DNA of 64,000 nucleotides from Giardia muris. Lineage: Eukaryota; Fornicata; Diplomonadida; Hexamitidae. The notes beneath the pieces were generated by a model. The model was not told the DNA's origin. It saw only the letters and a program-made list of their open reading frames with translations, and made no database searches. Shown here in pieces: positions 22,114 to 56,620 of the stretch. The position numbers and the translations under genes were made by a program. Within the stretch, counting starts at the first letter, position 1, and every line of letters begins with the position of its first letter. Location: NCBI GenBank assembly GCA_006247105.1, contig CM016926.1, forward strand, positions 620,001-684,000, in the 5' to 3' direction.

Positions 22114-24186
22114 TCATCGGAGGTGCTTTTCTACCTCATTGAAAGCTTTCCGCCTCGTCAGATGATTCTCGGGGTCCTTCGAGAGCATCTGGGAGATGAG
22201 ATCAGCAAGCTCTCGACTCCTTTCCTCGATAGCCGGAAGGTCTCTCTCAACAATATCAGTTACCCTGAGGAAAGGAAGCCTTCCGGTGCACATCTCATAT
22301 CCCATTACTCCCAGGGCCCAGACGTCAACGGACTTGTCATACTCCCCCTCTTTATGGCGCTCCGGGGCCATATAGAGCCCCGTTCCTACATATGTACTCA
22401 TCCGAGACGAGTCTTCGAGCACCTTTGCAAACCCGAAGTCCCCAAGGACACATCTACCGTCCAAAGCGACAAGGATATTCGCAGGCTTCAGGTCTCTATG
22501 AACATGCCTCTTCTCGTGGAGGTATGTGAGAGCGGCGGCCACCTCTCGGATCGTCTTCCAGACCTCCTGGTCGGTGTAGGGACATCTTGCCCTTCTCCGT
22601 TCCTTCGTTTCGTCACGGAGGTCCCCACAACAGAGGTCCATAACGAGAACGTAGGTGCTGTCGAGGTCGTTCTCTTCTCCCCTGATGCACCGGATGATGT
22701 TCGGATGGTCGAGGGAGGGGAGTATCTTCGCCTCTCTACGAAGCAGTTCCCGTTCCTTATCACTGCGTCCTCCAAGGCTAACAACCTTGACCGCCACGTT
22801 CTGGCCATTTCCATGTGCCGTATAAACAGCTCCAAACGACCCTTCTCCGAGCACAGCGGTCAAATGATAACCCGAGAGGCTGTCTGGGAGCCTCGGAAGC
22901 GTGGGTTGGTGCACAAGCACCCGTCGCATCTTCTCGTCTACCGCGTGCTCAGCTGCTGTCCTGCCCTCCCCGTCCTTCAGGTCCCTCTCCAGAAGGAGGA
23001 GGCCGACGCACTCCTCGTGTCCTCCCCCCACTGCATGCATCAAGGCCGTCCATCCCCTCCCGTCCTGGAGGCGGGCCTCGAGGGGCCGGAGGAGGCGGAC
23101 GACCTCGGTCTGGCCTCGGGAGGCGGCGTGCATCAGGGCCGTCATGCCTGAGGAGTCCTTCTGTCCCGCCTGGTCGAGGCGTCTTCGGAGTGTGTTGAGG
23201 TCTCCCTGGATGGCGGCTGGAATGAGGGACCCGTTCTTCAGTAGAGTATTTTCATTCTCGAGGGCGAGGTTCTGGGCCTTCTGGTCCGCAAGTTCTTTCT
23301 TGAGGTCCTCAATGGTCTTGGAGAGCTGGGTTTTGAGAGAGGACACTTCTTCCCTCGCCTCAGTAAGGCTCCTCTCGGCTTCCTGTGCTCTCTTGTTCAG
23401 AGTTTCATTCAGCTCGTGATTCTTCTCGGCCTCTTCGTTGGCCTTCTGGAGCTGCTGTTTGAGAGAGGAGACTTCCTGACTCAGTTGAGATAGCTCCTTC
23501 TTTGTTTCCTCATGTGCATTCTTGGAAGAGGAGAGGTCTTTCTTGAGGGAGTCGTTCTCAGTGGTGAGTTCGTTGATGCGTCTTTGTAGTCTGGGTAGTT
23601 CAGGATCCGGTGGAGGAAGTCGTTCTGTTCCTTCGCTCTCGAGGAGCTGACGGACCCGAGTGAAGCCTCCTTTTTCTGAGCTGTTGTTCGCGTACCACTT
23701 GGCAGTGTGATCTTCAGAGTCTTTCATTCCTTGTTCATAAGGGAGGAGGAGTTGGACGATCTCGGGGTGGTTGTAGTGGGCTGCGAGCATGAGAGCAGTT
23801 GTTCCAGGAGGAAAGCTATCTCGTTCCTTCGTTGAACGCCCCGCTTCTGAAAGGAGGAGCCTGGCACAATCTGCATTGCCGTTGCGGGCGGCCCAAATCA
23901 ATGCGGTACATCCGTACTTGTTCTGCATTCCAATCTCCCCATCAAGGAGGGAAATGCAATCGGAGTGACCTTCTTTTGCCGCAAACATCAGTGCGGTCCA
24001 TCCCCCTTCGCTTCGCATTCCGATCTCTCTTTCAAGCGGGAGGATGCAACTGGAGCGGCCTTCTCTTGCAGCCTTCATTAGGGCCGTCTCACCATTTTTT
24101 TCCTTCTTCCCTGCATCTCCAAGGTTGGCCTTCACTCTCTCGAGGTCTCCTCTCCCGGCTGCCTTCATCAACTCAGTGGGGAACAT
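22114..24186 (-). CDS. Ankyrin / coiled-coil / NEK-like protein kinase, left copy
   Basis: The 690-residue layout is: ankyrin repeats (about 1-195), coiled coil (200-315), two more ankyrin repeats (316-418) and a protein kinase (about 436-690). All catalytic elements are present: GEGSFGAVY glycine loop, VAVKVV lysine, HRDLKPANIL catalytic loop, DFG and the MAPE/APE motif. This matters because many Giardia ankyrin-NEK kinases lack them. From the start down to base 22306 the gene lies in the left inverted-repeat arm and matches the copy at 40734-42806 except for one codon (Thr here, Met there; base 22607). The last 60 or so residues, beyond DVWALGV, are a different but related C-lobe. The ATG sits in a CAAAAATG context. 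NEK assignment is by general resemblance only. Confidence 0.92.
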   Translation of the reverse strand: MFPTELMKAAGRGDLERVKANLGDAGKKEKNGETALMKAAREGRSSCILPLEREIGMRSEGGWTALMFAAKEGHSDCISLLDGEIGMQNKYGCTALIWAARNGNADCARLLLSEAGRSTKERDSFPPGTTALMLAAHYNHPEIVQLLLPYEQGMKDSEDHTAKWYANNSSEKGGFTRVRQLLESEGTERLPPPDPELPRLQRRINELTTENDSLKKDLSSSKNAHEETKKELSQLSQEVSSLKQQLQKANEEAEKNHELNETLNKRAQEAERSLTEAREEVSSLKTQLSKTIEDLKKELADQKAQNLALENENTLLKNGSLIPAAIQGDLNTLRRRLDQAGQKDSSGMTALMHAASRGQTEVVRLLRPLEARLQDGRGWTALMHAVGGGHEECVGLLLLERDLKDGEGRTAAEHAVDEKMRRVLVHQPTLPRLPDSLSGYHLTAVLGEGSFGAVYTAHGNGQNVAVKVVSLGGRSDKERELLRREAKILPSLDHPNIIRCIRGEENDLDSTYVLVMDLCCGDLRDETKERRRARCPYTDQEVWKTIREVAAALTYLHEKRHVHRDLKPANILVALDGRCVLGDFGFAKVLEDSSRMSTYVGTGLYMAPERHKEGEYDKSVDVWALGVMGYEMCTGRLPFLRVTDIVERDLPAIEERSRELADLISQMLSKDPENHLTRRKAFNEVEKHLR

Positions 24187-24990
24187 TTTTGAGCATCAAT
24201 CATCGACCTCCCCATCTCTCCCAGCCCCGGACCCCGACTCCAATGGGAGTACAGAAGGCCTGGCCCAGTCATCACCTCCAGGCCCCCGAGGAGGCCCTTC
24301 TCTCGAGCAGCAGCCTCAGGAACGTCTCAGAGGACAGCTATCTGTCCCCCTTGACCTGTGGGGCAGGATGCCGGAGGGCCGACTGGATGATCCTCGACCA
24401 CGAAGGAATGGGATCTGAGGGAGGCCTCCTGGCTCAAGAGACTGGACTCACCCTCCTTCCCAGTGCACTCTCTAGATCCCTGGCTGGAGTCCGGGGTGAG
24501 GGGCCGGACGGAACGGTCGGAGTGGTGTTCCTTCGCCCCCACACAGACTGCAAGGAGCATACCCTGACGGAAGGTCTGCTCCTCGGTCGAGTGTGCAAGA
24601 CGCAACGGTCGAGAAGGGGCTGTGGGGACGCCCTCTTGTGCTGTGTCGAGTTCGGAGAGTTGGAAGGGCGGAGTCATATCTCGGCCTTGTCCAGGCCTGC
24701 ATGCTCATCGTCGTTCATCAGTCGGGAAACGGTTGATTCCCTGCCCCATACCTTATTGAACCCTGATTCCTAGACTCTTCTTGAGCATGCATCATCGTTC
24801 TAATCACCGTGGTACTGGGGAAAGACCGACCTCAGCACGTACTGGCACGTTCTCGACACCACTCCTATCCTCCACACGTCCTCAGCTCTCTACAGAGGCA
24901 TCAGCAGGGATATTGGTACGGCTCAGGTCTTCATGGCCTCGTTCACTACTAGTAGAAGGGATTCCAGAGAGCCGGATTATGCGCACTACC
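24187..24990. other. 804-bp non-coding stretch between kinase and aldo-keto reductase
   Basis: No gene supported. Frames crossing it (for example plus-strand 23799-24773 starting at TTG, minus-strand 24327-24677 and plus-strand 24781-25041) show no family resemblance, lack A/T-rich starts, and the first is mostly antisense to the kinase. The part next to the kinase start is C/T-rich, like the sequence before the ankyrin-RING genes. It is preserved unchanged in the other arm. Confidence 0.6.
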
Positions 24991-25833
24991 TCACTTCTGG
25001 TTGTCCACGTCCGGAACGAACGCCGCATACTGCTTCAGTAGATCTGGGGTGCTGGTATAGTATCGGGCTCCTTTGTCCAGTCTCGAGATCCTTTCCAGCT
25101 CCTCGTCGGTGAGGGAGAAGTCGAAGATGTCGAGGTTGTCCTTGATGTGGACAGGAGTCTTGGAGCCCGGAATGACGACGTAGCCATTCTGCACGTGCCA
25201 ACGAAGGATGATCTGGGCGCTGCTCTTCCCGTACTTCTTCCCAAGCTCGGTGAAGATGGGCTCCTGAAGAAGAGCCTTATCTCCGTGGCCCAGAGGATAC
25301 CAGCCCTGGATCACTATGCCCTCGGCCTCCAGAACCTTCCTCAGTCTCTTCTCTTGGAGATAGGGGTGGGCCTCGGTCTGGAGAATGGAGGGCTTGACCT
25401 CGCAAACAGCCAAGATCTCGCGGACTTGCTCCTCGTTGAAGTTGGAAAGGCCGATGGCACGCACCTTCCCCTCCTTGTACGCCTTCTCCATGAGCTTGTA
25501 GCCCGCGATGTAGTTCCCGGCAGGCTGGTGGATGAGGAGAAGGTCGATGTAATCAGTTCCCAGGCGTTCCAGAGTCTTCTCCACCGCGTCTGGCTGCTCA
25601 TAGAAGGCGGGCCACAGCTTGGTCTCCAGGAAGATCTCCTTCCGAGGGAGCCCGGTCGCCTTGATGCCTCGTCCAACCGCCTTCTCGTTCACGTAGGCGT
25701 TGGCCGTGTCGATGAGCCTGTAGCCGCACTTGAGAGCACTGATAACCGATGCCTCGGCCTCATCGGGGGTGAGAAGGAAGGTACCGAGGCCTGCCATGGG
25801 CATTTCCACCCCGTTGTTCAGCTTCACCTGCAT
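24991..25833 (-). CDS. Aldo-keto reductase, bacterial 2,5-DKG reductase-like, left copy
   Basis: NAD(P)H-dependent carbonyl reductase of the AKR superfamily, predicted soluble. The catalytic tetrad is visible: Asp and Tyr in RLIDTANAY, Lys in LETKLWP and His in LLIHQP. Also seen are GLSNFNEEQ, the QTEAHPYLQ stretch and the cofactor-binding VIPGSKTP. The closest style is the bacterial and protist group that includes 2,5-diketo-D-gluconate reductases; the substrate cannot be read from sequence. The frame opens at 25875, but the Met at 25833 (MQVKLNNGVEMP) is the usual family start, follows GGGAAA and gives 280 residues. It is divergent from the arginase-like gene with 112 bp between, and is repeated in the right arm with one silent change. 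Confidence 0.93.
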   Translation of the reverse strand: MQVKLNNGVEMPMAGLGTFLLTPDEAEASVISALKCGYRLIDTANAYVNEKAVGRGIKATGLPRKEIFLETKLWPAFYEQPDAVEKTLERLGTDYIDLLLIHQPAGNYIAGYKLMEKAYKEGKVRAIGLSNFNEEQVREILAVCEVKPSILQTEAHPYLQEKRLRKVLEAEGIVIQGWYPLGHGDKALLQEPIFTELGKKYGKSSAQIILRWHVQNGYVVIPGSKTPVHIKDNLDIFDFSLTDEELERISRLDKGARYYTSTPDLLKQYAAFVPDVDNQK

Positions 25834-25945
25834 TTTCCCTAGCATGTGAAGCGAGCCTGTTCCAAGTGGTTGCATCCACCTGCCCTTTGGAGGCCGGCCT
25901 CTCTCAGGGCACGGGTCGGACGTTCCTCATGACCGCTCCTTTAAA

Positions 25946-26818
25946 ATGACGGAGGCCCTTCGTCTCATCTTCCCCCAGTGGCAAGGAGCCGATTCTGCTG
26001 GCATATCTCACTACCTTACAGACCTACATCCAACAGAGGCAGCGCAAGGATACCATCTCGGTTCGCAACTGCTCTTCTGGCTCGCCTCGAGGACAGACGC
26101 CCCCACAGAGACCGTCCCTGTCTCTCTTGATCTGGAGGATACAAAGACGGAGAACGGGATCTTTGCTTACCAGGCCATCAAACGGCAGCTTCGAGGAGCA
26201 CTTGACATCGTATCCAGACGCGCACCCAAGAAGATCACCACGCTAGGAGGTGAGTGCTCTGTTAGTGTCGTCCCCTTCAGTTATCTCATTTCCCAGTATC
26301 CAGGAGACGTGGCTCTGGTCTGGCTGGATGCTCATCCCGACCTGACCCTTCCTCACGAGGACTACACCGGATTCCATGCTATGGCACTGGCGGCCTTACT
26401 CGGGAAAGGAGATCCAGGGCTTGTGGACCTACTACCGGGCAAGATCGATCCCAGCTGTGCCCTACTCGTTGGGATGCATAGTGCTGCTAGCCAGGAAGAT
26501 ATCAAGAGGCCTGAGAGGTTTGGAGTGCAGGTGGTCTCCGCAGCTGATGCGAACAACAACACCCAGAAGGTCCTAGAATGGGTTCGTAGAACGGAGAAGA
26601 GAAAGGTGCTGGTCCATCTGGATCTCGACTGTCTCGACCCCAACGACCTCCGCCTGGCTGTGACGAGTGATCCCAATGGTCTGCGCCTCGAGACGGTCTC
26701 GAACCTGATCCGTGAGATCGCTGCAGAGTTCGAGCTGGTCGGACTGACCGTTGCAGAGCCGGTTCCCCGAGAAGTGTGCAAGCTAAGAAGGCTGCTAGGG
26801 GGGCTCCCGCTTATATGA
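25946..26818 (+). CDS. Arginase/ureohydrolase-superfamily protein, left copy
   Basis: Ureohydrolase fold with the binuclear metal motifs: GGECSVSV (arginase: GGDHS), WLDAHPDL (DAHxD) and HLDLDCLDPND (DxDxxDP). A late AEPVPR matches the family's EExxP region only loosely. The metal-binding His of the first motif is Cys here. A group of bacterial arginase-family proteins with GGDCS, long similarity in this region and no settled substrate looks most like it, so hydrolysis of arginine should not be assumed. 290 residues is normal for the superfamily. The ATG follows CTTTAAA. With the reductase it forms a divergent pair of bacterial-looking metabolic genes, suggesting lateral acquisition. Confidence 0.88.
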   Translation: MTEALRLIFPQWQGADSAGISHYLTDLHPTEAAQGYHLGSQLLFWLASRTDAPTETVPVSLDLEDTKTENGIFAYQAIKRQLRGALDIVSRRAPKKITTLGGECSVSVVPFSYLISQYPGDVALVWLDAHPDLTLPHEDYTGFHAMALAALLGKGDPGLVDLLPGKIDPSCALLVGMHSAASQEDIKRPERFGVQVVSAADANNNTQKVLEWVRRTEKRKVLVHLDLDCLDPNDLRLAVTSDPNGLRLETVSNLIREIAAEFELVGLTVAEPVPREVCKLRRLLGGLPLI

Positions 26819-26937
26819 TTGAGTGTTCGGTTGATGGGCCGGGCTGCCTTGGAACACAACTCAAATGAAGTGGCGGAACGCTTCCTCATCAACACGGGTA
26901 CTGTCCTGGCTAGAGTGTGGGGCCACATGTCTCCCTC

Positions 26938-27210
26938 ATGGATCACGTTGATGGCCTGTCAGTACGGAAAGGAGCAGGTTGGAAGAGACCATGGTGCCTC
27001 AGGTGCGTTCCAATGGTCCAGCCTAGATATGCGTCAGAGTGTACAGGTGGGGATGCGGAGACGTACATCCTGCGTGGTACAGGACGCCTTATGGTCCACT
27101 GCAAGGTCGGTGACCGCACCTCATACGTCAGGGGTCTCAAGTATTGCGACAAGTGCAAGGACAGGTTTACCCCAGTTAGGAGAACCTACGTCTCTGCTTA
27201 TGGCCATTGA
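26938..27210 (+). CDS. Small CxxC protein, left copy
   Basis: A 90-residue frame with two Cys pairs, CLRC near residue 20 and CDKCKDRF near residue 74, plus two further Cys between them. The pattern could be a zinc ribbon with a beta-rich middle (ETYILRGTGRLMVHCKVGD). I do not recognise the family. It lies 119 bp downstream of the arginase-like gene on the same strand and is identical in the right arm, so conservation between arms is not independent evidence. A competing frame (26819-27241) begins only at TTG and lacks pattern. The paired CxxC motifs are the main reason to call it. Confidence 0.4.
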   Translation: MDHVDGLSVRKGAGWKRPWCLRCVPMVQPRYASECTGGDAETYILRGTGRLMVHCKVGDRTSYVRGLKYCDKCKDRFTPVRRTYVSAYGH

Positions 27211-27515
27211 TACGTGCAGAATAGTGAGCCTAAGTGCGTGACCCGTTGACCAGCGCCACCTTATCCAGAACAGTGGATGGCAATAATTCTATTGAGTACC
27301 TAAGCCATCTAGCACCCTAGTGATCTTGCTATCTCCTTTCACGTACTGAAGACAACGTGCACGCGGCCGTCCATATACTTCTATCTAAGTAAGGTGGAGT
27401 TGCCCACGTGGTTCCCGAAGAACAGCCAGCCATAGCCTTTTAGCATGCGAGACTTGCAGGCCACAATCGGGCGCTAGGAACTTGCACTGTCTCATAATAA
27501 AGAGAAAATATAATA
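27211..27515. promoter_or_regulatory. 305-bp upstream region of the GTPase with A/T-rich initiator
   Basis: No frame of note. The last 25 bases before the GTPase ATG (about 27491-27515) form the strongest A/T tract in this neighbourhood, with CATAATAAAGAG and AAAATATAATA, and are the likely initiator/promoter. The remainder is of mixed composition, with a second A/T patch near 27280-27295. Confidence 0.6.
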
Positions 27516-30353
27516 ATGGTCAGCGATACAGAGACTGCACCACCCACTCCGCCAGGCGAAGATCACCCTCCCCAGGACGTTGCTCCCGGTCCCCAAGGAG
27601 CAGAGGCACCCCTCATCACCGGTGAAGGCGCATACAGCGAGGAGTACACAGCCCTCTGCACTGGATATCCCGAATCCGATTCCATTCGCCACGCATGTAT
27701 CGCCATCTTCGGACCGCAGTCGTCTGGCAAGTCGACCCTTCTCAACGACCTCTTCGGGACCAGCTTCAGAATGCTGGACGGGAACAATGGCCAGAGGCAA
27801 ATGACCAGGGGTATCACTGCTGGAATCATTCCCAGCATCGAATCTTCTCCAGCTCTGTTACTCTTCGATTGCGAGGGGTCCGAGAGCGGAGAGCGTCATA
27901 GGGAAGGTAATCAGAATATTGAGCACTATATAGGTTCCTTCGCAGCTGTCACTGCCGATATCCTCATTATCAACATACTGATGACAGATGTTGGTCGCAG
28001 TGTGGGTTCCTGTTCCAACCTCCTTGAGTCTATCTTCAAGGTCTACTTCAGACTCCGCAATGGCCAGAATGGCGCCTATCACAAGCTCAAGATCTTTATT
28101 GTTGTTCGTCGATACAATGGGGAGGGTGAGGAGAGTATGAGAGATGATCTCTCTAACAGTGTGCGTGAAATATACAAGAGCTCAGTACTTTCCGAGTTTT
28201 CCGAGTTCTGCGAAAGGTTCGACGACTTTATTGACCTCAAGTTCTGGTTTATCAGGGAGAAGTTTCGCGAAGACAGTGATGGGAATAGAAGAGAGTCGAG
28301 GCTCTACAAGAAGCAGTTGAGGGAAATCCGCACTCAGCTATCAGAACTGGCTGCCGAAGCTATCCGACAACCAGTCTCGAGCGGACGCCTACCTCTCACT
28401 CTTGCAGAGACCCCCGAGACATACAAATCGATTTGGGAAAGGATCTGCAACGACGAGGACCTCGATTTCCCGTCCATCCAAGAGGCTCTGAGCACCAAGA
28501 GGTGCATCGAAAAGGCTCAGGGGTGCACTGAGCAGCTCGATGCCGATCTCAAAGGCATCACACTCAATGTTCCCAACACTCTTCATGAGATCCTTGAAAT
28601 GCGAATTGACGGCATTGACATTGCACAGAGGCTCATAGATGCTGGATCTAATGCCGCTCTATCCTTTGATGAGCAAACGGAGGGCTACCTCGAGGGTCCA
28701 AGGATCGAACAACGGAGAATCCTCTATCAACATATCAGTCCGTGCCTGAGGGATAAGGCCAACAGCATTGTGGATAGTGTTGTGGGCACGGCCATGCGCC
28801 TTGTGGACGAGGCGTCCCAAGATGCTAAGTCTCGAGTCCCTAACTCAGTCACAAATGGCACTCTCATGACGCTGAAGAACCTCCTCGAAGAAGCAGATGA
28901 GATGCAGGCGACTCATCGTGACGGATTGAGGCTTGAGGTGCCTGAGCTACTTCATAGCCCGGCCTTCCCGTTCGACCAGTTCATAGAAAGAAGAGTCGCT
29001 CAATGGCAGAATGATGCCAGAGGAACTCTTGGCCTTTTCAACTCTATCTGCAGAGGCCTGTTGGTGTGGAGTGTCAAAGTAGTAGCTCCCTTTGGGGTGC
29101 TCTGTGATATCGAAGAGCATGTGTCGAGAGTTGAAAGGCGAGTCAACGACCAAATGGATGCTGTTGCGGAGCACTTTGAAAAGATTCTAAAAGAACAGTT
29201 TTCCGAGTTCTCCCAGCAGCAGCTACGCGATTCGAAAATCGACATTTCTTATGCTATCCGTGTGGGAGCAGATGTGGCACGTGAGCTGAACGGAATCTAC
29301 AGTACGTTAGTAAGCAGAGGGCACGAACGGCTGGAATCGCTCTGCAATGCGCTGGACATATCTAGACGTGACATTGCATCATCTCTTCTGCAGCAGTACA
29401 GCACTATCGTTGGAGAAGACATAAGAGCCTCCATCTTGCAGAAGTTCAGGAGCAACGCGGATGGGTCCATATTCGTCCATCTCTGGAGGTGTATGGAAGA
29501 TAAGATTAAGTTTGCAAACTTTCCCACCAGGGGACAGATAGACGCTGAATACAACAGAGTCAAGGAGGGGCTCGAGACATACGTCAGGTCCTTTGGAATA
29601 ATCGTGTTGAATGACCATGTCTCCCAAAGACAAGTGACGATAGACCTCCACAACGACATCCGCACTGAGATCGTACTAGAGAAGATGAACCATATATGGA
29701 TCCTGGGCTATAACCTCATGGTGCTCAGATTCGAGCTGATGAAGAGAAATACCTCAGAGATCATCAAAAGGCTAAACGCTTCTTCGGACAAAAAGAGGGA
29801 AGATGCTACCAATAACAAACTGAAAATCAAGGATCTTGATGTTGAAATAGCTCAACTTCGGGATGAAGCATGGTCGGACACGAGGAGAGCCAGGAAAGAA
29901 GAGAAAGAGGCCACCAAAAAGCGAATATGGGCGTGGGTGACTGCTCCACTTGTTATTCCTGCCATTCATTTCGCCAGCACCGCCTCTGATTGCGCTGATC
30001 GTGCCGCAGCGGCCAGGGATTGTGTCCAACAGGCGAATGAAAAGATCGTGAAGCTTCATGAGGGTCAAAAGGGACTATATAGTGCAAATGATGCGTTAAA
30101 CAAAGAATCAGATGAATTGAGAAACAGCGCTGGAGACCTTGAGAGTATCGAGACCGAACTGAAGAATCTGTTTGAAGACGTGCTGACGAAGGCTGACGAG
30201 TTGGCAAGAGATGCAATGGACATGGGGGTCGAGAAGTTGGCGTTAGAATCCGATGCGGAGAGACAGCAACTGAGAAAGAAGCTGAAAGAATTTATAGCTC
30301 GTTTTGAGGCTGCAAAGGACCAAGCTGCACCTCCTCCGCCTCCACCCGTGTGA
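27516..30353 (+). CDS. RHD3/Sey1-like dynamin-superfamily GTPase, left copy
   Basis: Resembles the atlastin/Sey1/RHD3 group that fuses ER membranes. Seen: P-loop GPQSSGKST (residues 66-74), a downstream switch with QMTRGI, G3 DCEG (118-121; usual DVEG) and FIVVRRYNG where the family G4 has R-D. A helical stalk follows (about 250-780), then a charged stretch and one hydrophobic segment, IWAWVTAPLVIPAIHFA, near residue 815. A helical tail comes next and ends in APPPPPPV. Known Sey1 proteins have a pair of membrane helices and are about 800 residues; this one is 945 with only one clear segment, so membrane insertion is uncertain. The altered G4 may change nucleotide handling. Identical to 34567-37404. 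Confidence 0.82.
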   Translation: MVSDTETAPPTPPGEDHPPQDVAPGPQGAEAPLITGEGAYSEEYTALCTGYPESDSIRHACIAIFGPQSSGKSTLLNDLFGTSFRMLDGNNGQRQMTRGITAGIIPSIESSPALLLFDCEGSESGERHREGNQNIEHYIGSFAAVTADILIINILMTDVGRSVGSCSNLLESIFKVYFRLRNGQNGAYHKLKIFIVVRRYNGEGEESMRDDLSNSVREIYKSSVLSEFSEFCERFDDFIDLKFWFIREKFREDSDGNRRESRLYKKQLREIRTQLSELAAEAIRQPVSSGRLPLTLAETPETYKSIWERICNDEDLDFPSIQEALSTKRCIEKAQGCTEQLDADLKGITLNVPNTLHEILEMRIDGIDIAQRLIDAGSNAALSFDEQTEGYLEGPRIEQRRILYQHISPCLRDKANSIVDSVVGTAMRLVDEASQDAKSRVPNSVTNGTLMTLKNLLEEADEMQATHRDGLRLEVPELLHSPAFPFDQFIERRVAQWQNDARGTLGLFNSICRGLLVWSVKVVAPFGVLCDIEEHVSRVERRVNDQMDAVAEHFEKILKEQFSEFSQQQLRDSKIDISYAIRVGADVARELNGIYSTLVSRGHERLESLCNALDISRRDIASSLLQQYSTIVGEDIRASILQKFRSNADGSIFVHLWRCMEDKIKFANFPTRGQIDAEYNRVKEGLETYVRSFGIIVLNDHVSQRQVTIDLHNDIRTEIVLEKMNHIWILGYNLMVLRFELMKRNTSEIIKRLNASSDKKREDATNNKLKIKDLDVEIAQLRDEAWSDTRRARKEEKEATKKRIWAWVTAPLVIPAIHFASTASDCADRAAAARDCVQQANEKIVKLHEGQKGLYSANDALNKESDELRNSAGDLESIETELKNLFEDVLTKADELARDAMDMGVEKLALESDAERQQLRKKLKEFIARFEAAKDQAAPPPPPPV

Positions 30354-30985
30354 ATAGTCTTAATACTCCAGAGACCAGGAGATGCTCAGGAAGAAGCTCG
30401 CTTGACAAGGCGACTCCCCAGAAGAGCTTCTGCGAGATGCCTCAAATTGCAGCTACCATTGTGCGTATGTAACGATGCACGAAAGTCCGTGAGCAGCAAG
30501 ACAGAGAGACTGGTGGAGCCAACTCGGGGCATGCATCCCGCATAGCCAGCTGTGGCCATCTCTCAGCTAGATATCGTGCAGGCTGTGGAACACTACGTGC
30601 CTAATGGGAATCCCAGACCTGATACGACGAAGACTCTCTCCTCTCAGAACCAGTTATCCCACTCCTCCTCGGTCCTGGATCCCAATGCCAATAGGGGAGA
30701 GAAGGCCTGGCTCGCCTGTCATCTCCAGACTCTTTAGGGGATGAGGAGTGACTGTGTAGGATCCTCCGCCCCTCTCCAGAGAACGAGGAGAGGGGTCTCT
30801 AACTTCACTTCCTGTCCTGTGCTCATCCACCGGACTGATGGGAAGGACTCCCTCTCTTGGAGATCCTCTCCAGGCCTACTCGTTGAAGCCCTTGGGTCTC
30901 CACCCTCGGGGAGTTGAGGAACATCAGTCAGGGATTCCACGCACTTCGTTGATATCGAAGACAGTGGGTGTAAGATATGAGAGTC
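30354..30985. other. 632-bp stretch between GTPase and ankyrin-RING ends
   Basis: Lies between two convergent gene ends. Short frames at 30552-30737 (+) and 30734-30940 (-) begin at GTG and show no motif, so I do not call them. The GTPase stop overlaps a TGTGAAT, close to the Giardia polyadenylation signal. For a genome with gene gaps usually under 100 bp this is unusually long, and it is identical in the mirrored stretch. Confidence 0.55.
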
Positions 30986-32728: not shown

Positions 32729-33130
32729 TTTTGAACGTCAACCCCCTCCTCCCTCTCACTGAGGACGCTCCTCCGGTCCCAGAGGCCGACCCGCCATCTC
32801 ACATCCCCTCGACAACAGAGGGGCGTCCAGATCGATGCACCCGTCCCCGGGAAGCCAGTGGGGCCCTCTCTCCGTCTGGCACGGCTCTCGTCAGAGACCA
32901 TTCGTCCTCGAGAGGGGAACGGGTCCGACCCTCACCAGGGGGTTGGGGGGCTATAAGGGGAGACCGATGACCAGTGGGAGCTCATCCAGGGACGAGAGCA
33001 CCCCGAGGAGAGCCGTGGGCCTCCCGTCCTCGGGGCCGGTCGTTGGTAGTGGTTAGATGCCCAGAGTGTCAGATGGTATGGGGGGAGCTTCAGTGGAAGG
33101 CTTGTGAAAGTAGAGACTTGATATTCAAAA
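32729..33130. other. 402-bp centre between two divergent ankyrin-RING genes
   Basis: No gene supported. It holds the upstream regions of the two divergent genes: a TCAAAAATG context stands at each start, and the rest is C/T- and G-rich. The point about which the arms mirror each other (32460) lies not here but inside the interrupted left gene, so the centre is not itself palindromic. Confidence 0.6.
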
Positions 33131-34566: not shown

Positions 34567-37404
34567 TCACACGGGTGGAGGCGGAGGAGGTGCAGCTTGG
34601 TCCTTTGCAGCCTCAAAACGAGCTATAAATTCTTTCAGCTTCTTTCTCAGTTGCTGTCTCTCCGCATCGGATTCTAACGCCAACTTCTCGACCCCCATGT
34701 CCATTGCATCTCTTGCCAACTCGTCAGCCTTCGTCAGCACGTCTTCAAACAGATTCTTCAGTTCGGTCTCGATACTCTCAAGGTCTCCAGCGCTGTTTCT
34801 CAATTCATCTGATTCTTTGTTTAACGCATCATTTGCACTATATAGTCCCTTTTGACCCTCATGAAGCTTCACGATCTTTTCATTCGCCTGTTGGACACAA
34901 TCCCTGGCCGCTGCGGCACGATCAGCGCAATCAGAGGCGGTGCTGGCGAAATGAATGGCAGGAATAACAAGTGGAGCAGTCACCCACGCCCATATTCGCT
35001 TTTTGGTGGCCTCTTTCTCTTCTTTCCTGGCTCTCCTCGTGTCCGACCATGCTTCATCCCGAAGTTGAGCTATTTCAACATCAAGATCCTTGATTTTCAG
35101 TTTGTTATTGGTAGCATCTTCCCTCTTTTTGTCCGAAGAAGCGTTTAGCCTTTTGATGATCTCTGAGGTATTTCTCTTCATCAGCTCGAATCTGAGCACC
35201 ATGAGGTTATAGCCCAGGATCCATATATGGTTCATCTTCTCTAGTACGATCTCAGTGCGGATGTCGTTGTGGAGGTCTATCGTCACTTGTCTTTGGGAGA
35301 CATGGTCATTCAACACGATTATTCCAAAGGACCTGACGTATGTCTCGAGCCCCTCCTTGACTCTGTTGTATTCAGCGTCTATCTGTCCCCTGGTGGGAAA
35401 GTTTGCAAACTTAATCTTATCTTCCATACACCTCCAGAGATGGACGAATATGGACCCATCCGCGTTGCTCCTGAACTTCTGCAAGATGGAGGCTCTTATG
35501 TCTTCTCCAACGATAGTGCTGTACTGCTGCAGAAGAGATGATGCAATGTCACGTCTAGATATGTCCAGCGCATTGCAGAGCGATTCCAGCCGTTCGTGCC
35601 CTCTGCTTACTAACGTACTGTAGATTCCGTTCAGCTCACGTGCCACATCTGCTCCCACACGGATAGCATAAGAAATGTCGATTTTCGAATCGCGTAGCTG
35701 CTGCTGGGAGAACTCGGAAAACTGTTCTTTTAGAATCTTTTCAAAGTGCTCCGCAACAGCATCCATTTGGTCGTTGACTCGCCTTTCAACTCTCGACACA
35801 TGCTCTTCGATATCACAGAGCACCCCAAAGGGAGCTACTACTTTGACACTCCACACCAACAGGCCTCTGCAGATAGAGTTGAAAAGGCCAAGAGTTCCTC
35901 TGGCATCATTCTGCCATTGAGCGACTCTTCTTTCTATGAACTGGTCGAACGGGAAGGCCGGGCTATGAAGTAGCTCAGGCACCTCAAGCCTCAATCCGTC
36001 ACGATGAGTCGCCTGCATCTCATCTGCTTCTTCGAGGAGGTTCTTCAGCGTCATGAGAGTGCCATTTGTGACTGAGTTAGGGACTCGAGACTTAGCATCT
36101 TGGGACGCCTCGTCCACAAGGCGCATGGCCGTGCCCACAACACTATCCACAATGCTGTTGGCCTTATCCCTCAGGCACGGACTGATATGTTGATAGAGGA
36201 TTCTCCGTTGTTCGATCCTTGGACCCTCGAGGTAGCCCTCCGTTTGCTCATCAAAGGATAGAGCGGCATTAGATCCAGCATCTATGAGCCTCTGTGCAAT
36301 GTCAATGCCGTCAATTCGCATTTCAAGGATCTCATGAAGAGTGTTGGGAACATTGAGTGTGATGCCTTTGAGATCGGCATCGAGCTGCTCAGTGCACCCC
36401 TGAGCCTTTTCGATGCACCTCTTGGTGCTCAGAGCCTCTTGGATGGACGGGAAATCGAGGTCCTCGTCGTTGCAGATCCTTTCCCAAATCGATTTGTATG
36501 TCTCGGGGGTCTCTGCAAGAGTGAGAGGTAGGCGTCCGCTCGAGACTGGTTGTCGGATAGCTTCGGCAGCCAGTTCTGATAGCTGAGTGCGGATTTCCCT
36601 CAACTGCTTCTTGTAGAGCCTCGACTCTCTTCTATTCCCATCACTGTCTTCGCGAAACTTCTCCCTGATAAACCAGAACTTGAGGTCAATAAAGTCGTCG
36701 AACCTTTCGCAGAACTCGGAAAACTCGGAAAGTACTGAGCTCTTGTATATTTCACGCACACTGTTAGAGAGATCATCTCTCATACTCTCCTCACCCTCCC
36801 CATTGTATCGACGAACAACAATAAAGATCTTGAGCTTGTGATAGGCGCCATTCTGGCCATTGCGGAGTCTGAAGTAGACCTTGAAGATAGACTCAAGGAG
36901 GTTGGAACAGGAACCCACACTGCGACCAACATCTGTCATCAGTATGTTGATAATGAGGATATCGGCAGTGACAGCTGCGAAGGAACCTATATAGTGCTCA
37001 ATATTCTGATTACCTTCCCTATGACGCTCTCCGCTCTCGGACCCCTCGCAATCGAAGAGTAACAGAGCTGGAGAAGATTCGATGCTGGGAATGATTCCAG
37101 CAGTGATACCCCTGGTCATTTGCCTCTGGCCATTGTTCCCGTCCAGCATTCTGAAGCTGGTCCCGAAGAGGTCGTTGAGAAGGGTCGACTTGCCAGACGA
37201 CTGCGGTCCGAAGATGGCGATACATGCGTGGCGAATGGAATCGGATTCGGGATATCCAGTGCAGAGGGCTGTGTACTCCTCGCTGTATGCGCCTTCACCG
37301 GTGATGAGGGGTGCCTCTGCTCCTTGGGGACCGGGAGCAACGTCCTGGGGAGGGTGATCTTCGCCTGGCGGAGTGGGTGGTGCAGTCTCTGTATCGCTGA
37401 CCAT
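34567..37404 (-). CDS. RHD3/Sey1-like dynamin-superfamily GTPase, right copy
   Basis: 945 residues, identical in translation to the copy at 27516-30353: P-loop GPQSSGKST at 66-74, DCEG at 118-121, helical stalk, one hydrophobic segment near 815 and a polyproline end. Its own upstream A/T-rich tract (about 37405-37429) is also preserved, so both copies should be transcribed. Because even silent positions match, the pair has been duplicated very recently or is being homogenised. RHD3/Sey1 identity rests on the GTPase motifs and stalk layout; a guanylate-binding-protein relative is the alternative. Confidence 0.82.
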   Translation of the reverse strand: MVSDTETAPPTPPGEDHPPQDVAPGPQGAEAPLITGEGAYSEEYTALCTGYPESDSIRHACIAIFGPQSSGKSTLLNDLFGTSFRMLDGNNGQRQMTRGITAGIIPSIESSPALLLFDCEGSESGERHREGNQNIEHYIGSFAAVTADILIINILMTDVGRSVGSCSNLLESIFKVYFRLRNGQNGAYHKLKIFIVVRRYNGEGEESMRDDLSNSVREIYKSSVLSEFSEFCERFDDFIDLKFWFIREKFREDSDGNRRESRLYKKQLREIRTQLSELAAEAIRQPVSSGRLPLTLAETPETYKSIWERICNDEDLDFPSIQEALSTKRCIEKAQGCTEQLDADLKGITLNVPNTLHEILEMRIDGIDIAQRLIDAGSNAALSFDEQTEGYLEGPRIEQRRILYQHISPCLRDKANSIVDSVVGTAMRLVDEASQDAKSRVPNSVTNGTLMTLKNLLEEADEMQATHRDGLRLEVPELLHSPAFPFDQFIERRVAQWQNDARGTLGLFNSICRGLLVWSVKVVAPFGVLCDIEEHVSRVERRVNDQMDAVAEHFEKILKEQFSEFSQQQLRDSKIDISYAIRVGADVARELNGIYSTLVSRGHERLESLCNALDISRRDIASSLLQQYSTIVGEDIRASILQKFRSNADGSIFVHLWRCMEDKIKFANFPTRGQIDAEYNRVKEGLETYVRSFGIIVLNDHVSQRQVTIDLHNDIRTEIVLEKMNHIWILGYNLMVLRFELMKRNTSEIIKRLNASSDKKREDATNNKLKIKDLDVEIAQLRDEAWSDTRRARKEEKEATKKRIWAWVTAPLVIPAIHFASTASDCADRAAAARDCVQQANEKIVKLHEGQKGLYSANDALNKESDELRNSAGDLESIETELKNLFEDVLTKADELARDAMDMGVEKLALESDAERQQLRKKLKEFIARFEAAKDQAAPPPPPPV

Positions 37405-37709
37405 TATTATATTTTCTCTTTATTATGAGACAGTGCAAGTTCCTAGCGCCCGATTGTGGCCTGCAAGTCTCGCATGCTAAAAGGCTATGGCTGGCTGTTC
37501 TTCGGGAACCACGTGGGCAACTCCACCTTACTTAGATAGAAGTATATGGACGGCCGCGTGCACGTTGTCTTCAGTACGTGAAAGGAGATAGCAAGATCAC
37601 TAGGGTGCTAGATGGCTTAGGTACTCAATAGAATTATTGCCATCCACTGTTCTGGATAAGGTGGCGCTGGTCAACGGGTCACGCACTTAGGCTCACTATT
37701 CTGCACGTA
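37405..37709. promoter_or_regulatory. 305-bp upstream region of the right GTPase copy
   Basis: Mirror of 27211-27515, with the A/T-rich initiator adjacent to the GTPase start (TATTATATTTT and CTTTATTATGAG on the plus strand). No gene seen in the remainder. Confidence 0.6.
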
Positions 37710-37982
37710 TCAATGGCCATAAGCAGAGACGTAGGTTCTCCTAACTGGGGTAAACCTGTCCTTGCACTTGTCGCAATACTTGAGACCCCTGACGTATGAG
37801 GTGCGGTCACCGACCTTGCAGTGGACCATAAGGCGTCCTGTACCACGCAGGATGTACGTCTCCGCATCCCCACCTGTACACTCTGACGCATATCTAGGCT
37901 GGACCATTGGAACGCACCTGAGGCACCATGGTCTCTTCCAACCTGCTCCTTTCCGTACTGACAGGCCATCAACGTGATCCAT
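37710..37982 (-). CDS. Small CxxC protein, right copy
   Basis: Same 90-residue frame as 26938-27210 with the two CxxC pairs. It follows the right arginase-like copy on the same strand. Its reality stands or falls with the left copy, and I cannot name a family. A GTG codon 21 bases upstream of the ATG could extend it by 7 residues. Confidence 0.4.
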   Translation of the reverse strand: MDHVDGLSVRKGAGWKRPWCLRCVPMVQPRYASECTGGDAETYILRGTGRLMVHCKVGDRTSYVRGLKYCDKCKDRFTPVRRTYVSAYGH

Positions 37983-38101
37983 GAGGGAGACATGTGGCCC
38001 CACACTCTAGCCAGGACAGTACCCGTGTTGATGAGGAAGCGTTCCGCCACTTCATTTGAGTTGTGTTCCAAGGCAGCCCGGCCCATCAACCGAACACTCA
38101 A

Positions 38102-38974
38102 TCATATAAGCGGGAGCCCCCCTAGCAGCCTTCTTAGCTTGCACACTTCTCGGGGAACCGGCTCTGCAACGGTCAGTCCGACCAGCTCGAACTCTGCAGC
38201 GATCTCACGGATCAGGTTCGAGACCGTCTCGAGGCGCAGACCATTGGGATCACTCGTCACAGCCAGGCGGAGGTCGTTGGGGTCGAGACAGTCGAGATCC
38301 AGATGGACCAGCACCTTTCTCTTCTCCGTTCTACGAACCCATTCTAGGACCTTCTGGGTGTTGTTGTTCGCATCAGCTGCGGAGACCACCTGCACTCCAA
38401 ACCTCTCAGGCCTCTTGATATCTTCCTGGCTAGCAGCACTATGCATCCCAACGAGTAGGGCACAGCTGGGATCGATCTTGCCCGGTAGTAGGTCCACAAG
38501 CCCTGGATCTCCTTTCCCGAGTAAGGCCGCCAGTGCCATAGCATGGAATCCGGTGTAGTCCTCGTGAGGAAGGGTCAGGTCGGGATGAGCATCCAGCCAG
38601 ACCAGAGCCACGTCTCCTGGATACTGGGAAATGAGATAACTGAAGGGGACGACACTAACAGAGCACTCACCTCCTAGCGTGGTGATCTTCTTGGGTGCGC
38701 GTCTGGATACGATGTCAAGTGCTCCTCGAAGCTGCCGTTTGATGGCCTGGTAAGCAAAGATCCCGTTCTCCGTCTTTGTATCCTCCAGATCAAGAGAGAC
38801 AGGGACGGTCTCTGTGGGGGCGTCTGTCCTCGAGGCGAGCCAGAAGAGCAGTTGCGAACCGAGATGGTATCCTTGCGCTGCCTCTGTTGGATGTAGGTCT
38901 GTAAGGTAGTGAGATATGCCAGCAGAATCGGCTCCTTGCCACTGGGGGAAGATGAGACGAAGGGCCTCCGTCAT
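38102..38974 (-). CDS. Arginase/ureohydrolase-superfamily protein, right copy
   Basis: 290 residues, translation identical to the left copy, with GGECSVSV, LDAHPDL and DLDCLDPND. Upstream it faces the right aldo-keto reductase copy across the same 112 bp. The Cys in the first metal motif is present in both copies, so it is not a random sequencing error. Known arginases need the His at that place, while the GGDCS group of bacterial proteins does not have it, so the metal site may hold one ion or bind differently (inference). Confidence 0.88.
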   Translation of the reverse strand: MTEALRLIFPQWQGADSAGISHYLTDLHPTEAAQGYHLGSQLLFWLASRTDAPTETVPVSLDLEDTKTENGIFAYQAIKRQLRGALDIVSRRAPKKITTLGGECSVSVVPFSYLISQYPGDVALVWLDAHPDLTLPHEDYTGFHAMALAALLGKGDPGLVDLLPGKIDPSCALLVGMHSAASQEDIKRPERFGVQVVSAADANNNTQKVLEWVRRTEKRKVLVHLDLDCLDPNDLRLAVTSDPNGLRLETVSNLIREIAAEFELVGLTVAEPVPREVCKLRRLLGGLPLI

Positions 38975-39086
38975 TTTAAAGGAGCGGTCATGAGGAACGT
39001 CCGACCCGTGCCCTGAGAGAGGCCGGCCTCCAAAGGGCAGGTGGATGCAACCACTTGGAACAGGCTCGCTTCACATGCTAGGGAAA

Positions 39087-39929
39087 ATGCAGGTGAAGCT
39101 GAACAACGGGGTGGAAATGCCCATGGCAGGCCTCGGTACCTTCCTTCTCACCCCCGATGAGGCCGAGGCATCGGTTATCAGTGCTCTCAAGTGCGGCTAC
39201 AGGCTCATCGACACGGCCAACGCCTACGTGAACGAGAAGGCGGTTGGACGAGGCATCAAGGCGACCGGGCTCCCTCGGAAGGAGATCTTCCTGGAGACCA
39301 AGCTGTGGCCCGCCTTCTATGAGCAGCCAGACGCGGTGGAGAAGACTCTGGAACGCCTGGGAACTGATTACATCGACCTTCTCCTCATCCACCAGCCTGC
39401 CGGGAACTACATCGCGGGCTACAAGCTCATGGAGAAGGCGTACAAGGAGGGGAAGGTGCGTGCCATCGGCCTTTCCAACTTCAACGAGGAGCAAGTCCGC
39501 GAGATCTTGGCTGTTTGCGAGGTCAAGCCCTCCATTCTCCAGACCGAGGCCCACCCCTATCTCCAAGAGAAGAGACTGAGGAAGGTTCTGGAGGCCGAGG
39601 GCATAGTGATCCAGGGCTGGTATCCTCTGGGCCACGGAGATAAGGCTCTTCTTCAGGAGCCCATCTTCACCGAGCTTGGGAAGAAGTACGGGAAGAGCAG
39701 CGCCCAGATCATCCTTCGTTGGCACGTGCAGAATGGCTACGTCGTCATTCCGGGCTCCAAGACTCCTGTCCACATCAAGGACAACCTCGACATCTTCGAC
39801 TTCTCCCTCACCGACGAGGAGCTGGAAAGGATCTCGAGACTGGACAAAGGAGCCCGATACTATACCAGCACCCCTGATCTACTGAAGCAGTATGCGGCGT
39901 TCGTTCCGGACGTGGACAACCAGAAGTGA
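39087..39929 (+). CDS. Aldo-keto reductase, bacterial 2,5-DKG reductase-like, right copy
   Basis: Same protein as the left copy; the only DNA difference found is base 39875 (CCT here, CCA there, both Pro). The AKR tetrad Asp, Tyr, Lys and His is intact. The start is chosen at the Met before QVKLNNGVEMP as in the left copy; the frame is open to 39045. Two identical intact copies would double the dose of this reductase, one plausible consequence of keeping the repeat. Confidence 0.93.
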   Translation: MQVKLNNGVEMPMAGLGTFLLTPDEAEASVISALKCGYRLIDTANAYVNEKAVGRGIKATGLPRKEIFLETKLWPAFYEQPDAVEKTLERLGTDYIDLLLIHQPAGNYIAGYKLMEKAYKEGKVRAIGLSNFNEEQVREILAVCEVKPSILQTEAHPYLQEKRLRKVLEAEGIVIQGWYPLGHGDKALLQEPIFTELGKKYGKSSAQIILRWHVQNGYVVIPGSKTPVHIKDNLDIFDFSLTDEELERISRLDKGARYYTSTPDLLKQYAAFVPDVDNQK

Positions 39930-40733
39930 GGTAGTGCGCATAATCCGGCTCTCTGGAATCCCTTCTACTAGTAGTGAACGAGGCCATGAAGACCTGAGCC
40001 GTACCAATATCCCTGCTGATGCCTCTGTAGAGAGCTGAGGACGTGTGGAGGATAGGAGTGGTGTCGAGAACGTGCCAGTACGTGCTGAGGTCGGTCTTTC
40101 CCCAGTACCACGGTGATTAGAACGATGATGCATGCTCAAGAAGAGTCTAGGAATCAGGGTTCAATAAGGTATGGGGCAGGGAATCAACCGTTTCCCGACT
40201 GATGAACGACGATGAGCATGCAGGCCTGGACAAGGCCGAGATATGACTCCGCCCTTCCAACTCTCCGAACTCGACACAGCACAAGAGGGCGTCCCCACAG
40301 CCCCTTCTCGACCGTTGCGTCTTGCACACTCGACCGAGGAGCAGACCTTCCGTCAGGGTATGCTCCTTGCAGTCTGTGTGGGGGCGAAGGAACACCACTC
40401 CGACCGTTCCGTCCGGCCCCTCACCCCGGACTCCAGCCAGGGATCTAGAGAGTGCACTGGGAAGGAGGGTGAGTCCAGTCTCTTGAGCCAGGAGGCCTCC
40501 CTCAGATCCCATTCCTTCGTGGTCGAGGATCATCCAGTCGGCCCTCCGGCATCCTGCCCCACAGGTCAAGGGGGACAGATAGCTGTCCTCTGAGACGTTC
40601 CTGAGGCTGCTGCTCGAGAGAAGGGCCTCCTCGGGGGCCTGGAGGTGATGACTGGGCCAGGCCTTCTGTACTCCCATTGGAGTCGGGGTCCGGGGCTGGG
40701 AGAGATGGGGAGGTCGATGATTGATGCTCAAAA
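39930..40733. other. 804-bp non-coding stretch, mirror of 24187-24990
   Basis: Between the reductase stop and the right kinase start. No supported gene. Preserved to the base, as far as I compared, with the left stretch. Confidence 0.6.
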
Positions 40734-42806
40734 ATGTTCCCCACTGAGTTGATGAAGGCAGCCGGGAGAGGAGACCTCGAGAGAGTGAAGGCCAACCTTG
40801 GAGATGCAGGGAAGAAGGAAAAAAATGGTGAGACGGCCCTAATGAAGGCTGCAAGAGAAGGCCGCTCCAGTTGCATCCTCCCGCTTGAAAGAGAGATCGG
40901 AATGCGAAGCGAAGGGGGATGGACCGCACTGATGTTTGCGGCAAAAGAAGGTCACTCCGATTGCATTTCCCTCCTTGATGGGGAGATTGGAATGCAGAAC
41001 AAGTACGGATGTACCGCATTGATTTGGGCCGCCCGCAACGGCAATGCAGATTGTGCCAGGCTCCTCCTTTCAGAAGCGGGGCGTTCAACGAAGGAACGAG
41101 ATAGCTTTCCTCCTGGAACAACTGCTCTCATGCTCGCAGCCCACTACAACCACCCCGAGATCGTCCAACTCCTCCTCCCTTATGAACAAGGAATGAAAGA
41201 CTCTGAAGATCACACTGCCAAGTGGTACGCGAACAACAGCTCAGAAAAAGGAGGCTTCACTCGGGTCCGTCAGCTCCTCGAGAGCGAAGGAACAGAACGA
41301 CTTCCTCCACCGGATCCTGAACTACCCAGACTACAAAGACGCATCAACGAACTCACCACTGAGAACGACTCCCTCAAGAAAGACCTCTCCTCTTCCAAGA
41401 ATGCACATGAGGAAACAAAGAAGGAGCTATCTCAACTGAGTCAGGAAGTCTCCTCTCTCAAACAGCAGCTCCAGAAGGCCAACGAAGAGGCCGAGAAGAA
41501 TCACGAGCTGAATGAAACTCTGAACAAGAGAGCACAGGAAGCCGAGAGGAGCCTTACTGAGGCGAGGGAAGAAGTGTCCTCTCTCAAAACCCAGCTCTCC
41601 AAGACCATTGAGGACCTCAAGAAAGAACTTGCGGACCAGAAGGCCCAGAACCTCGCCCTCGAGAATGAAAATACTCTACTGAAGAACGGGTCCCTCATTC
41701 CAGCCGCCATCCAGGGAGACCTCAACACACTCCGAAGACGCCTCGACCAGGCGGGACAGAAGGACTCCTCAGGCATGACGGCCCTGATGCACGCCGCCTC
41801 CCGAGGCCAGACCGAGGTCGTCCGCCTCCTCCGGCCCCTCGAGGCCCGCCTCCAGGACGGGAGGGGATGGACGGCCTTGATGCATGCAGTGGGGGGAGGA
41901 CACGAGGAGTGCGTCGGCCTCCTCCTTCTGGAGAGGGACCTGAAGGACGGGGAGGGCAGGACAGCAGCTGAGCACGCGGTAGACGAGAAGATGCGACGGG
42001 TGCTTGTGCACCAACCCACGCTTCCGAGGCTCCCAGACAGCCTCTCGGGTTATCATTTGACCGCTGTGCTCGGAGAAGGGTCGTTTGGAGCTGTTTATAC
42101 GGCACATGGAAATGGCCAGAACGTGGCGGTCAAGGTTGTTAGCCTTGGAGGACGCAGTGATAAGGAACGGGAACTGCTTCGTAGAGAGGCGAAGATACTC
42201 CCCTCCCTCGACCATCCGAACATCATCCGGTGCATCAGGGGAGAAGAGAACGACCTCGACAGCACCTACGTTCTCGTTATGGACCTCTGTTGTGGGGACC
42301 TCCGTGACGAAATGAAGGAACGGAGAAGGGCAAGATGTCCCTACACCGACCAGGAGGTCTGGAAGACGATCCGAGAGGTGGCCGCCGCTCTCACATACCT
42401 CCACGAGAAGAGGCATGTTCATAGAGACCTGAAGCCTGCGAATATCCTTGTCGCTTTGGACGGTAGATGTGTCCTTGGGGACTTCGGGTTTGCAAAGGTG
42501 CTCGAAGACTCGTCTCGGATGAGTACATATGTAGGAACGGGGCTCTATATGGCCCCGGAGCGCCATAAAGAGGGGGAGTATGACAAGTCCGTTGACGTCT
42601 GGGCCCTGGGAGTAGTAGCGTACGAGATGTGCACTGGGAGGCTCCCGTTCAGGAACGTAGCAGCTGTCCTCGAAAAGACGCCCGCTCCTTCTCTCAGGAA
42701 TCGTCCCTCAGACCTTGCTCCCCTCATCTCCCGGATGCTCTCAAGGAACCCCAAAGATCGTCCGACAGCACGGGACGTCCTCGAGGAGGCGGAGAGGCAC
42801 CAGTAA
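40734..42806 (+). CDS. Ankyrin / coiled-coil / NEK-like protein kinase, right copy
   Basis: 690 residues with the same ankyrin, coiled-coil, ankyrin and kinase layout as the left copy, and intact GEGSFG, VAVK, HRDLKPAN, DFG and APE motifs. It differs at codon 527 (Met for Thr, base 42313) in the helical part of the C-lobe before the catalytic loop. After base 42614 it carries its own C-lobe end: GVVAYEMCTGRLPFRN onward, with LISRMLSRNPKDRPTARDVL, closer to the kinase consensus than the left copy, which has DPENHLTRRKAF. The gene may therefore be the better preserved kinase of the pair (inference). The ATG is in CTCAAAAATG. Confidence 0.92.
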   Translation: MFPTELMKAAGRGDLERVKANLGDAGKKEKNGETALMKAAREGRSSCILPLEREIGMRSEGGWTALMFAAKEGHSDCISLLDGEIGMQNKYGCTALIWAARNGNADCARLLLSEAGRSTKERDSFPPGTTALMLAAHYNHPEIVQLLLPYEQGMKDSEDHTAKWYANNSSEKGGFTRVRQLLESEGTERLPPPDPELPRLQRRINELTTENDSLKKDLSSSKNAHEETKKELSQLSQEVSSLKQQLQKANEEAEKNHELNETLNKRAQEAERSLTEAREEVSSLKTQLSKTIEDLKKELADQKAQNLALENENTLLKNGSLIPAAIQGDLNTLRRRLDQAGQKDSSGMTALMHAASRGQTEVVRLLRPLEARLQDGRGWTALMHAVGGGHEECVGLLLLERDLKDGEGRTAAEHAVDEKMRRVLVHQPTLPRLPDSLSGYHLTAVLGEGSFGAVYTAHGNGQNVAVKVVSLGGRSDKERELLRREAKILPSLDHPNIIRCIRGEENDLDSTYVLVMDLCCGDLRDEMKERRRARCPYTDQEVWKTIREVAAALTYLHEKRHVHRDLKPANILVALDGRCVLGDFGFAKVLEDSSRMSTYVGTGLYMAPERHKEGEYDKSVDVWALGVVAYEMCTGRLPFRNVAAVLEKTPAPSLRNRPSDLAPLISRMLSRNPKDRPTARDVLEEAERHQ

Positions 42807-52666: not shown

Positions 52667-52673
52667 GATCGCC

Positions 52674-54521: not shown

Positions 54522-54545
54522 TCCGACCGCTCACCCTGATTTATA

Positions 54546-56614: not shown

Positions 56615-56620
56615 GCTAGA

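Follow-up and report, generated by a model that had tools for sequence, protein, structure and literature searches.

Structure and gene content of the palindrome

The stretch of DNA analysed here, referred to as the window, comprises 64,000 nucleotides of Giardia muris (C2:620001-684000) in a genome of 9.74 Mb and 52 contigs, and contains a palindrome, i.e., two long arms in inverted orientation around a spacer (Table 1). From the outside in, each arm carries a NEK-type kinase gene with ankyrin repeats, an aldo/keto reductase gene, a gene of the arginase family, the gene of a 945-aa GTPase of the RHD3 type, and the RING tail of an ankyrin-RING gene. The chromosomes or contigs compared are designated C1, C2, C4 and C5, and the palindrome is known here from the assembled sequence of one genome.

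Direct base comparison of the arm cores showed that they are reverse complements of each other with mismatches at 2 of 8831 sites (0.023%). The near-perfect inverted repeat with two differences, which had been claimed in the original prediction from the letters of the window, was thereby borne out, and so was the spacer of 2.65 kb, which measured 2647 bp. Of the two mismatches (22607 G/A and 25045 T/A, after complementing), one is synonymous and lies in the aldo/keto reductase gene, and the other exchanges Thr and Met in the NEK kinase; the longest unbroken identical run between the arms is 6091 bp. In blastn and a repeat search the arms extended outward by another 36 bp, giving 8867 bp with 11 mismatches, nine of which sit in the added outer 36 bp. 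Inside the two inner edges 25 of 100 bp matched, which is the level of chance, and the flanks directly outside the two arms were 35% identical over 156 bp (ungapped). The locus consists of inverted arms more than 99% identical around a unique spacer; a control stretch of the window (50000-59999) gave two matches, of 41 and 75 bases.

All four edges of the arms lie within genes. The outer edges fall within the kinase domains of both NEK genes, whose last 63 residues are 46% identical, and the inner edges coincide with the beginning of the RING domain in both ankyrin-RING genes, with tails that are alike and ankyrin parts that are not; the frames remain open in each case, so that the four chimaeric junction open reading frames (ORFs) of the locus are all open. 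Because the edges lie inside homologous genes and the frames were kept, homologous recombination, not random joining, would be the process that produced them. Such open-frame edges within genes were clearest at this locus among the nine inverted pairs described below. The doubling of five genes, as originally proposed for this compact protist genome (a correct description), holds for three whole genes, i.e., those of the aldo/keto reductase, the arginase-family protein and the RHD3-type GTPase; the NEK-ankyrin gene differs in its last 63 codons and the ankyrin-RING gene shares the RING tail only. A mobile element with terminal inverted repeats was rejected as an identification of the locus, with no transposase or integrase among the 10 ORFs scanned in or near the arms.

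Sister loci on chromosomes 1 and 5

A sister locus on C1 is likewise an inverted pair (1437315-1447387 and 1450085-1460158), 99.80% identical over 10.07 kb, with a spacer homologous to that of C2. Its arms differ at 24 columns, all of them in the outermost ~680 bp (1437315-1437994), and the remainder is free of differences. The inner edges of the C1 and C2 palindromes coincide to the base on both sides, with matching spacer adjoining each. On C5 there is a single arm with most of the spacer, followed by a different ankyrin-RING gene in inverted orientation; the inverted RING pair there is 85% identical over 145 bp and no second arm is present. With its near-identical inverted arms, its unique spacer and a C1 sister that has the same inner edges, the window locus is a true chromosomal palindrome of G. 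muris.

The window locus corresponds to the duplicated arginase region of Xu et al. (2020, PMC7641422, Fig. 4a), in which a four-gene region was reported to be present twice side by side on chromosome 2, twice on chromosome 1 and once on chromosome 5. According to these authors an intact arginase is found on chromosome 2 only, the duplications lie between ARP and NEK genes, which were called possible anchoring-points for recombination, and two duplication events were inferred. Relative to the text of that paper, the arm identity, the shared inner edges and the comparison within and between chromosomes are added here, and it is newly described that the C1 pair, too, forms a palindrome, whose spacer is related and whose inner edges are the same to the base. 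In the arginase-family gene a stop at codon 45 is common to the C1 left-arm copy and the C5 copy, the C1 left-arm copy is without the usual stop at codon 291, and in BLAST comparison there was one internal stop per C1 arm.

The 7.5-kb core of five arms (two of C2, two of C1, one of C5) was aligned over 7533 columns. Within chromosomes the C2 arms differed at 1 of 7529 sites and the C1 arms at 0 of 7528, while divergence between chromosomes was 4.98% (C1-C2), 4.1% (C2-C5) and 2.6% (C1-C5). At 373 sites both C2 arms agreed against both C1 arms; a single site distinguished one arm from the others and none grouped left with left and right with right, where about 375 differences between arms would be expected had the arms diverged like the chromosomes. 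Similarly, the changes specific to C1 (C2 and C5 agreeing) were found 128 times in both C1 arms and never in one arm only. In the outer 500 columns C2 is 30% different from C1 and C5, and there too the two arms of any one chromosome resemble each other. Synonymous divergence between C1 and C2 was ~0.035 in all three whole genes. The arms within a locus are more alike than the arms of sister palindromes that share their edges, the right edge of C1 and C2 being weakened as evidence by a recent exchange (see below).

The C5-specific changes (C5:64945-72475) were bunched, with 15, 10 and 19 of the 64 in three single 300-column bins, as if patches had come from other copies.

A second pair of sister palindromes

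A second pair of sister palindromes is located on C4 and C1. The arms of the C4 palindrome (951115-962549 and 965599-977033; P4 in Table 1) differ at 12 of 11,435 sites, the differences being clustered, and those of its C1 sister are at least 5783 bp long with 15 differences. The arms are thus 99.7-99.9% alike within each chromosome, and the inner edges agree between the chromosomes. When the spacers of C4 and C1 were compared in blocks of 150 columns, 20 of 21 blocks differed (0-6.7%, median 2.7%), including the end blocks (3.4% and 4.3%). Over the inner 3.7 kb, the four arms showed 160 sites at which the two arms of each pair agreed but the pairs differed, 21 sites peculiar to one arm and none that grouped arms across chromosomes. 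Eight of the one-arm sites fell within 169 columns of one C1 arm, where two sites of the other C1 arm are interspersed or adjacent; this cluster looks like a patch that came from another copy and has still to be homogenised, and the clustered differences of the C4 arms are read in the same way. The palindrome architecture may be older than the divergence of the sisters, with better support for C4/C1 than for C1/C2.

Table 3 of Xu et al. (2020, PMC7641422) places a gene for alpha-tubulin between pairs of vsp genes on chromosomes 1 and 4, and we infer that this locus is the C4 palindrome. Stretches of the C4 spacer (C4:957001-967000) have numerous further copies at 95-97% identity, many of which lie on small contigs or close to the end of a contig, and often bring with them a 159-bp piece of the arm edge.

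Other inverted pairs in the genome

Including those described above, nine long inverted pairs had arms 99.74-100% identical and spacers of 1197-7950 bp (Table 1). The pairs were chosen from search hits that looked inverted, several of them with equal scores; the self-comparisons had a minimum match length of 100 to 300 bp and a minimum identity of 70 to 80%, and P3, P5 and P10 run to the end of the fetched stretch, so that their arm lengths are minima. The inner edges of P1, P2, P6 and P10 all map to a single position of the RING gene, to within ~10 bp, and in P11 both inner edges are located within ankyrin-kinase genes. One arm of P6 has a 5.5-kb block in common with both arms of P4 (90%, with equal scores) in inside-out orientation. 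Since the same block serves P6 and P4 turned inside out, palindromes must have arisen more than once.

Table 1. Features of the palindrome in the window (window positions) and of related inverted pairs elsewhere in the genome (contig positions)
Feature	Position	Strand	Remark
Left palindrome arm	22270..31136	+	core 22306-31136
Spacer	31137..33783	.	2647 bp; homologous to C1 palindrome spacer, partly to C5
Right palindrome arm	33784..42650	-	core 33784-42614
Left NEK-type protein kinase with ankyrin repeats	22114..24186	-	outer arm edge inside kinase domain
Right NEK-type protein kinase with ankyrin repeats	40734..42806	+	start as left copy, last 63 codons different
Aldo/keto reductase, left copy	24991..25875	-	
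Aldo/keto reductase, right copy	39045..39929	+	protein same as left
Arginase-family protein, left copy	25946..26818	+	open frame
Arginase-family protein, right copy	38102..38974	-	open frame
RHD3-type GTPase, left copy	27516..30353	+	945 aa
RHD3-type GTPase, right copy	34567..37404	-	945 aa
Left ankyrin-RING gene	30986..32113	-	ARP-2 class of Xu et al. 2020, by domains; RING tail in arm, remainder in spacer
Right ankyrin-RING gene	33131..33934	+	RING tail as left, ankyrin part different
RING tail and 3' flank, left	30677..31136	+	dispersed repeat; left inner edge at its end
RING tail and 3' flank, right	33784..34243	-	right inner edge
P1	C2		window palindrome
P2	C1:1437315-1460158		
P3	C2:1183001-1202726		
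P4	C4:951115-977033		
P5	C1:2371001-2385708		
P6	C2:587240-602995		
P7	C1:649515-663986		
P10	C4:627001-635888		
P11	C2:1830858-1836102		
5.5-kb block	C4:955961-961507, C4:966641-972187, C2:587240-593034		opposite ends face spacer in P4 and P6
Further inverted hit pair	C1:1960073 / 1971764		search scores only; equal
Further inverted hit pair	C5:724129-727823 / 731338-735032		search scores only; equal
Further inverted hit pair	C5:528642 / 558900		search scores only; equal in one search, 1020 and 1006 bits in another
Further inverted hit pair	C1:2258673 / 2261625		search scores only; unequal
Further hits	C3 near 21-26 kb and 1005-1009 kb		search only

Origin and maintenance of the palindromes

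Based on these comparisons, the window palindrome was probably seeded at an inverted pair of RING genes, copied out to the NEK gene and kept even by gene conversion from arm to arm. The seed would have been two ankyrin-RING genes in inverted orientation, an arrangement that still exists on C5 without a second arm. Recombination starting in the RING homology could then have copied the flank, as far as the NEK kinase gene, to the other side, and since then the arms would have been converting each other continually. Through such mutual conversion both arms would come to carry the same substitutions and replaced gene segments and, on C1, the same premature stop in the arginase-family gene. The likely effect is that copies are maintained and that the genes of the arms change jointly.

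Several observations weigh against this reading. The conversion is deduced from sequence comparison of one genome. The spacer of C1 and C2 is a mosaic, in which ~490 bp before the right edge are only 0-0.7% different, and because the spacer is nearly identical there, the shared right edge is no clean proof of an old palindrome. Across that edge the end of the arm differs by ~6% between C1 and C2. The right edge was probably exchanged between the two chromosomes recently; the sharp step in divergence at the arm border would fit copying within each chromosome. Moreover, the inner edges lie in dispersed repeats, and independent events could therefore yield the same edges. Edges within genes were not a general feature: of the 36 edges in the nine pairs, 19 are spanned by an ORF of at least 100 aa (a few of these 19 only mark where a fetched stretch stopped), and no ORF of this length passes over the left inner edge on C1. 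GC-biased conversion, considered as a sign of long-term copying between arms, was rejected because no signal was found (Fisher p 0.75): the C1-specific changes were 53 weak-to-strong (W>S) and 69 strong-to-weak (S>W), and those of the C5 comparison 29 and 33, respectively. The sample of nine pairs is biased to near-identical ones, since they were picked as inverted-looking hits, several of them equal-scoring. A short inverted pair on C5 (74728-75069 and 83528-83869; 342 bp, 8.5 kb apart) is only 96.8% identical. Direct tandem or end-of-contig copies also had equal or near-equal scores (C3:1278450-1281964, C34, C35, C4:8882-12396), and the notion that near-identity is exclusive to inverted pairs was dropped, direct tandem copies near chromosome ends scoring equal too.

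The strongest competitor of seeding followed by conversion, although in our judgement an unlikely one, is a series of independent and very recent inverted duplications. In this scenario a unit of one arm, a spacer and a RING gene, such as that of C5, would have spread to C1 and C2, and at each of these the left arm would not long ago have been duplicated to the far side of the spacer, at the same RING homology; conversion afterwards would be unnecessary and palindromes would come and go fast. The required starting state is found on C5, i.e., the seed exists because an inverted RING pair and a single arm are present there. The inner edges of four palindromes at one RING spot look as if homology dictated the edge, the inside-out block of P6 and P4 indicates repeated origins, and the right spacer edge is near-identical between C1 and C2. 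On the other hand, the palindromes of C1 and C2 and both of the C4/C1 pair must then all date from the late part of the divergence, none of the nine long pairs had arms of 90-99.7% identity (in a sample that is not unbiased), and the clusters of one-arm patches point to later copying into the arms. The original prediction offered two alternatives, an inverted duplication of very recent date or gene conversion still in progress, which was the right pair, and the related loci favour repeated copying of arms over a one-off old duplication.

An artefact of the assembly, whether a false join or a consensus in which the differences between two arms were lost, is very improbable. The assembly was made with PacBio RS II, HGAP and Quiver (Xu et al. 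2020, PMC7641422), and in the assembly of G. lamblia contigs were reported to end at identical inverted vsp pairs (Adam et al. 2010, PMC2996952). However, an artefact would need to have produced the same edges twice with different arms, and it is opposed by the open junction ORFs of the window locus and by the dissimilar flanks outside its arms. Copies 5% different were evidently kept apart in the assembly, because two loci share edges and their arms differ by 5%. A read with a missed adapter is expected to give no 2.6-kb spacer. The false join, which was originally to be excluded first, is judged unlikely since a second palindrome with its own arms, 5% different, has the same inner edges.

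Least probable of all is that the palindrome is kept for a regulatory role, by read-through hairpin RNA entering a Dicer/Argonaute pathway of Giardia or by crossing-over between the arms that flips the spacer as a switch: the structure would permit this and Argonaute and a functional Dicer were reported in G. lamblia, but the same source describes that species as apparently without RNA interference (PMC2583053), and a search of Rfam gave no match in 20000-45000 of the window.

Comparison with known palindromes and significance

Palindromes of primate X and Y chromosomes have arms more than 99% identical around a spacer and are kept so by ongoing gene conversion (PMC8981503). As in these, each of the G. 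muris loci is even within itself while sister loci differ; unlike these, they occur on chromosomes of a protist, the sister loci are on two chromosomes and not in two species, and no GC bias was found. By its sequence the window palindrome is best placed with such known gene-converting palindromes. Arm conversion, or a test within and between loci, on Giardia palindromes was not found in titles and beginnings of abstracts, supplements and subscription papers being outside the search.

In G. lamblia, identical inverted vsp copies around 2-4 kb with abrupt divergence at their edges were described by Adam et al. (2010, PMC2996952), who called them a 'cryptic observation' and explained them by duplication and transposition; the term 'gene conversion' occurs 0 times in the main text of that paper. 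Identical inverted vsp pairs are also listed for G. muris (Xu et al. 2020, PMC7641422, Table 3). The window palindrome is similar to the G. lamblia pairs in its abrupt edges and in its spacer, which is within their 2-4 kb. It differs from Giardia vsp pairs in that its arms measure 8.9 kb and contain metabolic genes, with no surface-antigen or vsp family among the seven arm and spacer ORFs scanned (smaller overlapping ORFs being outside the scan). Palindromes could explain the identical inverted surface-antigen pairs.

How the copies of the genome stay alike was called open for G. duodenalis, the trophozoites of which were reported to be tetraploid with very low heterozygosity and with no reported mating or meiosis (PMC11169602). 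In G. muris allelic heterozygosity is 0.016% (Xu et al. 2020, PMC7641422). The difference between the arms of the window palindrome is about as small, and such palindromes may serve as marked loci for measuring the rate and the direction of gene conversion. A wider proposal, which we put forward tentatively and hold to be possible rather than probable, is that ordinary chromosomes of G. muris carry palindromes (nine, with at least two more indicated) seeded at inverted ankyrin-RING/NEK genes and continually homogenised. They would form a device of copy correction and joint evolution like that of sex chromosomes, in a genus without reported meiosis, and the identical inverted vsp pairs would be one case of it and not recent duplications.

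Products of the arm genes

For the arginase-family protein (25946-26818) the closest solved structure was 6ksy_A (arginase/agmatinase/formiminoglutamase). The protein has GGECS where the arginase 1cev has GGDHS, the H of this motif being a metal ligand, and it scored 51 bits against the arginase model, the cut-off of which is 227.6. Its best database relative was a Giardia duodenalis protein named arginase (78%), with unnamed and bacterial proteins next. The term arginase is used here as a family label, and an arginase activity of this protein would be putative.

No family of NCBIfam was found for the RHD3-type GTPase (27516-30353). Its two best relatives among 7999 candidates scored, at 45% and 35% identity, combine ankyrin repeats with an RHD3 domain, and the second of them is named as a Giardia duodenalis ankyrin repeat protein. 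The remoter relatives were proteins of the RHD3/SEY1 type, plant and algal ones among them.

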